The notes beneath the pieces are model-generated. The model was given only the letters and a program-made list of their open reading frames with translations. It ran no database searches and was not told the DNA's origin. Positions 4,893-6,123 of a stretch of 64,000 nt of DNA are shown one piece after another (the first letter of the stretch is position 1; each line of letters opens with the position of its first letter). Source of the DNA: Candidatus Gastranaerophilales bacterium (GTDB taxonomy: Bacteria; Cyanobacteriota; Vampirovibrionia; Gastranaerophilales; Gastranaerophilaceae); NCBI GenBank assembly GCA_944323695.1, contig CALUTI010000002.1, positions 1 to 64,000 of the forward strand. The letters run 5' to 3'. Position numbers and translations under genes: made by a program.

Positions 4893-5939
4893 TTAGTCAC
4901 CAATGCAAACTGCCTCAATATCGCTACGCCTGCGGACGAAGTTGCTCCAGCCCGTACTGATAGAGGTGAAGGAGCGGAAGTACGCGTGGGTGCTGCTATA
5001 CTCCTCATCGGACCACACTTGGAATCCACCTGAGCTTAGATTGAAGCCTAACTCTGCTAATTTGTCATAGTCAAGGGTTACGCCAGATTCAATTCCTGAA
5101 CTTGATACTGATGTGTTGTATACATAGTCTGCTATATCTTTTAATTGTGCTTTTGTTGGCATCTTACTAACGCCTCCGCAAGCTTTAACAGCCCCTGCCC
5201 AATAATCGTCATCATAGTTGCAATCGGATATTCCAAGAGCAGTCTTTTCGGCTTCACACTCTGCTTTTGTTAACGGTGTTGGTGTAAACGAAGCAGTGAA
5301 ACATGTTCCATTTATTTCGAAAGCACAGTTGCTTCCTCCAAGACTTGCAATATTCAAGCCTCTTAAATCTTTTTGTTGAGTATTAGGAGTTTTAAATCCT
5401 GAGGTGTCATAAAGAATAGCTAAACAATCAGTACCGATACCTTCTTTAGATACAGTAATAACTCTGTTGCTGTAAGGGTCTTGTTTACAATCTTTGTTGT
5501 AAGCGATAAGAGCATTTGTCCCGTCTGCAAACATAGCCCCGACGATATCAGTTTCTTCCCATTCATCCTGCCCAAAGTGTGAAACATTTTTAACTTTAGT
5601 CATATCAACTTCTTCATTTTCCGCACCCCAGATAACTTTATCTTCAAAGCAGGACATCAGGTCGTCATTTTTACAAACTTTGGAGATTTTCATGTGTTTG
5701 GATAATTCAGCAACGAAATCCTCGGTATTCTGATAACCAGCAAGGGAGCCCTGAGTATTCATAACAGTTAAAGCATCACCTAATTTTCTTTGGAATACTA
5801 CCGCCGCGGTAGTCCATGAGCGTTCCTGGTAATTCGCGATAAGTGTCGGAATAGTCATGGCCGCAACCACACCAATAATAGCCAGAGTAATTAGAACTTC
5901 GGCCAAAGTAAAGGCACATCTACGAACATTGTCACACAT
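4893..5939 (-). CDS. Type IV pilin-like protein with C-terminal C-lectin-like (FISUMP/DUF1566-type) domain; candidate hypervariable protein
   Basis: The open frame gives 348 residues. Residues 8-40 form a prepilin/pseudopilin signal with FTLAEVLITLAIIGVV, cut by a prepilin peptidase before the Phe and followed by a membrane helix. The C-terminal ~120 residues (YWAGAVKAC, then MPTKAQLKDIAD, then VWSDEEYSS and a final VCIGD) resemble the C-type-lectin-like domain of FISUMP and diversity-generating-retroelement target proteins. The last ~40 codons (4896-5015) are GC-rich and mostly end in C or T, unlike the rest of the gene. No ribosome binding site precedes this ATG; a strong one lies before another ATG at 6043, out of frame by one base because of a 9-C run (5995-6003). 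Likely exposed on pili or the cell surface. Confidence 0.8.
   Translation of the reverse strand: MCDNVRRCAFTLAEVLITLAIIGVVAAMTIPTLIANYQERSWTTAAVVFQRKLGDALTVMNTQGSLAGYQNTEDFVAELSKHMKISKVCKNDDLMSCFEDKVIWGAENEEVDMTKVKNVSHFGQDEWEETDIVGAMFADGTNALIAYNKDCKQDPYSNRVITVSKEGIGTDCLAILYDTSGFKTPNTQQKDLRGLNIASLGGSNCAFEINGTCFTASFTPTPLTKAECEAEKTALGISDCNYDDDYWAGAVKACGGVSKMPTKAQLKDIADYVYNTSVSSSGIESGVTLDYDKLAELGFNLSSGGFQVWSDEEYSSTHAYFRSFTSISTGWSNFVRRRSDIEAVCIGD
4896..5015 (-). other. Candidate variable region (DGR-VR-like) of the pilin-like protein
   Basis: By hand count, 68 of 121 bases at about 4896-5016 are G or C, against a clearly AT-rich remainder of the gene. Reading in frame, 24 of 28 consecutive codons in the core (YSSTHAYF through RSDI) end in a pyrimidine. 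That is what adenine mutagenesis of a template rich in AAY codons produces. The segment sits at the 3' end of a C-lectin-like domain, the usual place for a variable region. No matching template repeat or reverse transcriptase is visible in the window. Confidence 0.5.
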
Positions 5940-6043
5940 ACCTACGTGCGTAGCACCCTCAGCAAGGGTAAAACCCTTATATAGTGTTAATCTCGGGGGG
6001 GGGCGATTATCTGAACCGCTTTTGTAACAACCTTTTTCAACAT
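5940..6043 (-). other. Frameshifted leader of the pilin-like gene with poly-C tract
   Basis: On the minus strand AAGGAGG followed closely by ATG at 6043 opens a frame MLKKVVTKAVQIIAPP that stops a few codons after a run of nine C (5995-6003). The distance from 6043 to the downstream ATG at 5939 is 104 bases; adding one C (10 in total) makes the frame continuous. The joined leader would read ...LYKGFTLAEGATHVG and run into MCDNVRRCAFTLAEVL. The region also holds AAGGGT-TTT-ACCCTT and CTACG-CA-CGTAG hairpins. Confidence 0.7.
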
Positions 6044-6123
6044 ATTTAATCCTCCTTTTTCTTCCATTAAATATTATTTTTGATATTTTGTCAAGAAAAT
6101 TTTTCAGTGGATTTTTATATAAT

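Follow-up and report, generated by a model that had tools for sequence, protein, structure and literature searches.

The run of nine C at positions 5995 to 6003 probably serves as a slipped-strand ON/OFF switch for a type IV pilin-like surface protein, and ∼60 loci of the same make-up are present in this genome. The window, the whole 64-kb stretch of DNA analysed here, comes from an uncultured Gastranaerophilales-type MAG (1.73 Mb, 97.8% complete). The gene and its leader lie on the minus strand and contain the following features:

6051–6057, minus strand: Shine-Dalgarno (SD) sequence AAGGAGG of the leader ORF, read from the sequence; the SD-ATG-leader-tract layout recurs at ∼61 loci of the genome
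5987–6043, minus strand: leader ORF as sequenced with nine C, MLKKVVTKAVQIIAPPRD, its stop right behind the tract (frame reading)
5995–6003, minus strand (nine G on the plus strand): poly-C tract, the proposed switch; out of frame with the pilin at C9, in frame at C10
5913–5994, minus strand: linker between leader and pilin, without a stop in the pilin frame, RLTLYKGFTLAEGATHVGMCDNVRRCA (frame reading)
5950–5978, minus strand: KGFTLAEGAT, a second prepilin-type motif that lies upstream, within the linker (pattern match)
5937–5939, minus strand: alternative ATG of the longest intact ORF, lacking a usable SD (sequence)
4893–5939, minus strand: type IV pilin-like gene, 348 aa counted from the internal ATG (Pfam PF07963)
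5853–5924, minus strand: N-terminal methylation/prepilin motif, beginning CAFTLAEVLITLAIIGVVAAM, residues 6–29 (PF07963 match)
4917–5000, minus strand, boundaries approximate: 3′-end hypervariable stretch of putative DGR type, with codon positions 1–2 variable and the third base conserved

Read directly along the coding strand, AAGGAGG (6057–6051) is followed after a spacing of 7 nt by the ATG at 6043–6041, 40 nt of leader, nine C, the linker, and AFTLAEVLITLAIIGVVAAM. By frame arithmetic, the frame opened at 6043 ends in a stop after MLKKVVTKAVQIIAPPRD when the tract has nine C, while with ten C the same codons run into RLTLYKGFTLAEGATHVGMCDNVRRCAFTLAEVLITL; in the window gene, a change of one unit thus toggles between a truncated and a full-length product. 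The initial annotation had stated that nine C put this frame out by one base and that ten restore it, that the SD ahead of 6043 is the only strong ribosome site, and that no other G/C run in the window is as long. Direct reading confirms the first statement, the second is true for the window gene, and the third also holds, as 5995–6003 is the only G/C run of at least 8 in the 64 kb (two overlapping 8-mer matches that form one 9-mer). These two matches compare with 0.21 expected and were reached in 3 of 100 shuffles; a single run of this length per 64 kb is only mildly unusual, and the strength of the case comes from the whole genome. The pilin itself matches Pfam PF07963 (N_methyl) at 26.1 bits against a cut-off of 21.2, and its predicted structure (seven sequences used; pLDDT 73, pTM 0.47) has a long N-terminal helix over residues 12–62, residues 1–33 being of low confidence. 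A comparison of the predicted structure with the PDB returned no convincing match (best E 0.11).

Across the 1.73-Mb genome, 68 G/C runs of at least 9 were counted when 1.0 would be expected under a first-order model of the window, and by hand count ∼61 of them lie shortly behind an SD and ATG, in a short leader. With runs of at least 8 included, a pilin motif follows within 700 nt at 55 tract loci; the genome has 74 genes with this motif. Three leader types recur, namely ‘KAVQIVAPPPR’, which is poly-C and of the same type as the window gene, and the poly-G types ‘M(E/K)xMKxxxNGGG’ (27 nt) and ‘NTHHNYIS’ (36–37 nt). Tract lengths in this genome are G8 (3 loci), G9 (33), G10 (7), G11 (2), and G12 (3), with C9 at 6 loci and C10 at one. 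Surface-glycan genes are a classical home of poly-G switches. Five further runs lie on contig C5, four of them in a surface-glycan cluster, inside or at the ends of genes that, by reading the sequence, are of surface-glycan type (glycosyltransferase, nucleotide-sugar epimerase, sugar cytidylyltransferases, and hexapeptide acetyltransferase); two runs on contig C10 are doubtful. Poly-G tracts of 9–10 in glycan genes or at their junctions are found at G000 C5:8861, 12709, 51422, and 52751 (L071, L069, L070), and one C5 tract joins two sugar-cytidylyltransferase-like reading frames.

The frame between tract and pilin was examined in 15 genomes with tract loci (the window's own, others of the same genus, and two of the same family), in which runs of at least 8 gave 114 out-of-frame loci. 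It is stop-free in 113 of the 114, with 7 stops per 6176 codons, all in one locus, while the other two frames have 401 and 679 stops and are open in merely 5 and 6 loci. In a gene that was never in frame, or whose start lay downstream, this frame would not stay open, which argues that the fusion frame is real. Linker length varies between about 7 and over 120 codons, and many linkers are built of interspersed repeats that are translated, with few exceptions in frame; no ATG occurs in the linkers of 65 of the 114 loci, and none of ATG, GTG, or TTG in those of 36. Because the fusion frames are stop-free and the linkers of these 36 loci lack any start codon, the leader must, on the evidence of the reading frames, be the translated start, at least sometimes. 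A codon-position substitution test showed only weak amino-acid constraint on the linkers, so the argument rests on the missing stops rather than on conserved residues, and the constraint on a linker would mainly be to stay open. Examples of the in-frame interspersed repeats are FRDHSGAGGESVVEK, HPEAKPKDLKRFFA, and CHPEFISGSH...KQVRNDKK (as in L054, L060, and L062); they resemble the in-frame insertion of palindromic elements known from other bacteria, and they sometimes supply a second FTLAEGATHV motif.

These observations also bear on the view that the leader is irrelevant, with translation always starting from the internal ATG (5939) and the ORF ahead of it being a relic or an attenuator. 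The window gene does have this in-frame ATG 9 residues ahead of the mature F, and many linkers contain an ATG. However, the site at 5939 has no usable SD, the 36 related out-of-frame loci offer no linker start codon at all, and linkers remain stop-free, so we regard a constant internal start as very improbable. Tract-less pilins of the same genome also look different, and they provide a clean internal contrast: most of them start 4–7 residues ahead of the motif, and a strong SD precedes several of these starts (MTKKA, MKKFG, MKIRA), whereas an SD-led ATG lies inside the linker at only 1 of the 55 tract loci. One pilin (L107, G000 C3:43900-45900) has the same kind of leader and linker without a tract (MKLLKNSGGGSVVEKIIPDYRIRVNKAFTLAEVL) and looks like a locked-on derivative.

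Tract lengths range overall from 6 to 13, in comparisons that cover paralogues and different species rather than one population. Homologous leaders across the genus mostly have C9 as well, with C7, C8, C10, and C11 alleles also present, and the poly-C loci are unusually uniform at C9. Among the poly-G loci, paralogues in G001 that are 92–96% identical just downstream carry 9, 10, and 11 G, those in G024 carry 11, 12 (in frame), and 13, and in G138 and G055 the lengths are 9, 10, and 11, of which 11 is in frame. In the G009/G010 pair, an in-frame tract of nine G is matched with one of six although the pilin bodies differ by 1 mismatch in 700 nt; divergence is greater in the leader than in the body, and recombination may have played a part. 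For L172 versus L176, linker and pilin body are >99% identical between two species while leader and tract have clearly diverged, which may reflect leader exchange or recombination between species. The in-frame length is one above the modal length in the window's genus and one below it in G024, and the main leaders of G014 and G018 are one base long or two short. The register thus differs between lineages, which speaks against a systematic error of assembly as well as against one programmed frameshift.

The first of these, a tract that is in truth always in frame and is misreported, draws on the facts that the genomes are MAGs, probably from short reads, and that homopolymers are error-prone. 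Such an error would have to shorten the tract by a base in some lineages (9 for 10) yet lengthen it by a base elsewhere (13 for 12), and different projects and assemblers agree on the lengths (idba, NODE, and k127/k141 contigs); an artefact is, in our judgment, extremely improbable. The second would leave the tract fixed and obtain a constant low level of fusion product through programmed −1 ribosomal frameshifting or RNA-polymerase slippage. This would suit the dominance of C9/G9, as most such loci would be in frame with exactly one more base, and the position of C_CCC_CCC or G_GGG_GGG in frame 0, and an open fusion frame is compatible with any frame-restoring mechanism. However, the needed register is +1 in the window gene, +2 in the main leaders of G014, G018, and G024, and 0 in several loci; in-frame alleles exist in the DNA itself, among lengths of 6 to 13; tracts are found in glycan genes too; the window leader has no structure (z-score 0.51); and a mode at 9 is also seen in the phase-variable tracts of Campylobacter (PMC6321876). 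A fixed tract of this kind is therefore unlikely, and programmed frameshifting, taken seriously on account of the prevalence of 9, was set aside as the principal explanation since the register is not the same in all lineages. Slippage of the polymerase or the ribosome may nevertheless contribute some leaky expression. Phase variation by homopolymer slippage, which the initial annotation had proposed, is the best-supported reading, with ∼61 loci, open frames at 113 of 114, length variation, tracts in glycan genes, and the mode at 9 all behind it.

Under phase variation, translation would start at the leader ATG (6043), and replication slippage to nine C would stop the ribosome after 18 codons (OFF), while ten C would allow read-through via the linker into the prepilin (ON), which would be processed before the F of FTLAEVL and then displayed. 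With independent slippage at each locus and an OFF length at most of them, the cells of a population would differ in which few pilins of a large repertoire they show. The layout, the frame arithmetic, the enrichment, the retained fusion frame, and the length differences among homologous loci are observed; that slippage is frequent enough in living cells, that the prepilin is processed and displayed on the surface, and that variation towards immunity, phages, or adhesion brings a benefit in the gut is what we infer. In the window's own genome 10 of 55 tract loci are in frame, and among open loci 19 of 132 (∼15%) are, which is below one third (binomial p = 1e-6, an optimistic value since the loci are related). 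Under phase variation, a deficit of this sort calls for either selection in favour of OFF or biased tract lengths, and it suggests selection for a mostly OFF repertoire. Besides this deficit, the uniformity of the poly-C loci at C9, and the weak amino-acid constraint on linkers, two further points count against a switch. The genome has MutS, which lowers slippage but does not exclude it, and many linkers, at up to >100 aa, exceed what is usual in the leader of a prepilin. Loss of MutS was considered as a cause of tract instability and rejected, the gene being present.

The poly-G leaders have a further feature, a 6–9-nt complement of the SD region just behind the tract. Examples of SD and complement are GGAGGTTAA/TTAACCTCC, TTAAAAGG/CCTTTTAA, and TAGGAGA/TCTCCTA. 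The pairs fit better within loci than across genomes: at poly-G leaders the match of a locus with its own complement is 5.84 as compared to 5.13 for swapped partners, the maximum of 200 swaps being 5.41. The resulting stem would enclose the start codon and the tract (e.g., L051:1442-1543, L014:1409-1511, and L193:271-372), and control of translation or a slippage-promoting hairpin is a possible role for it. By the same swap test the stem is missing from the poly-C leaders, including that of the window gene, and folding of the window leader showed no structure (z-score 0.51); an SD-sequestering hairpin was accordingly ruled out as part of the explanation of this gene.

The initial annotation had also held that one gene carries two independent diversity devices, and this is supported in kind. 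A DGR-type pattern of variable NNC/NNT codons is present at the 3′ end in seven homologues, the window copy itself not matching the anchor used, but a retroelement responsible for it was not located. At L172 and L176, from two species, bodies with 1 mismatch in 700 nt have tips that are completely different and heavily substituted. The likeness to the CLec-type C-terminal targets of DGRs lies in 3′ hypervariability at first and second codon positions with a conserved third base; the difference is that here no template repeat or dedicated reverse transcriptase was located. Reverse transcriptase genes are found in the genome at C2:118865 and C7:95073, and in neither these loci nor the window was a template repeat for the variable stretch found. 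The C2 gene (L292, G000 C2:118865-119524) encodes a 387-aa reverse transcriptase beside phage-like structural genes and is possibly part of a phage DGR or another retroelement.

Taken together, it is somewhat more probable than an even chance that this family of non-photosynthetic gut Cyanobacteria has a pilin phasome, in which tens of independent poly-G/C switches per genome, mostly OFF, some with a retroelement-type hypervariable tip to the gene and many of the poly-G ones with a covarying SD/anti-SD stem, would combine combinatorial expression with targeted hypermutation of one fibre repertoire. Its components have counterparts elsewhere. The Opa repeats of Neisseria sit in the leader. As in the present loci, Opa is a multi-copy surface family in which each copy switches independently by its own repeat, but the repeat is a pentamer (CTTCT; PMC5953494) and there are at most about a dozen copies. 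In Neisseria pilC1/pilC2 (PMC5953494), a homopolymer in the reading frame of a pilus gene likewise switches a pilus phenotype; there, a pilus-associated protein is encoded by only one or two genes, whereas here dozens of pilin-like subunits are concerned. The poly-G/C contingency loci of Campylobacter jejuni (PMC6321876) are similar in having G/C homopolymers in surface-gene reading frames, tens of loci in a low-GC genome, and a mode of 9 followed by 10 (53% and 26% of Campylobacter phase-variable tracts, respectively). They comprise 18–39 genes, mostly enzymes of capsule/LOS and flagellar glycans (PMC8437040), while the present loci belong predominantly to a single pilin superfamily and the genus commonly has coding tracts of poly-C.

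The mechanism is thus a textbook one, and it is the lineage, the gene family, and the scale that appear unreported: in open-licence PMC text we found no report of phase variation in the Gastranaerophilales lineage, and in the literature searched no description of an N-terminal phase switch coupled to a DGR target. If the switch is real, an uncultured lineage common in animal guts would have a homopolymer phasome among the largest seen, most of it serving a single surface protein family, and would offer a test case for the expression of one or a few of many genes via independent switches. It would also account for the broken appearance of these pilin genes or their annotation from incorrect internal starts, and would make strain tracking and surface-antigen studies in Gastranaerophilales population-level problems. 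Of 192 genomes in the order, 91 have the SD-ATG-tract pattern, and almost all of these belong to the family of the window. In that family the number of G/C runs per genome reaches 176 (G062), 151 (G175), and 132 (G172), the pilin link having been checked for part of these runs. Several genera of the family have zero such runs, and the majority of the class's other families show fewer than 10 per genome, in larger genomes.
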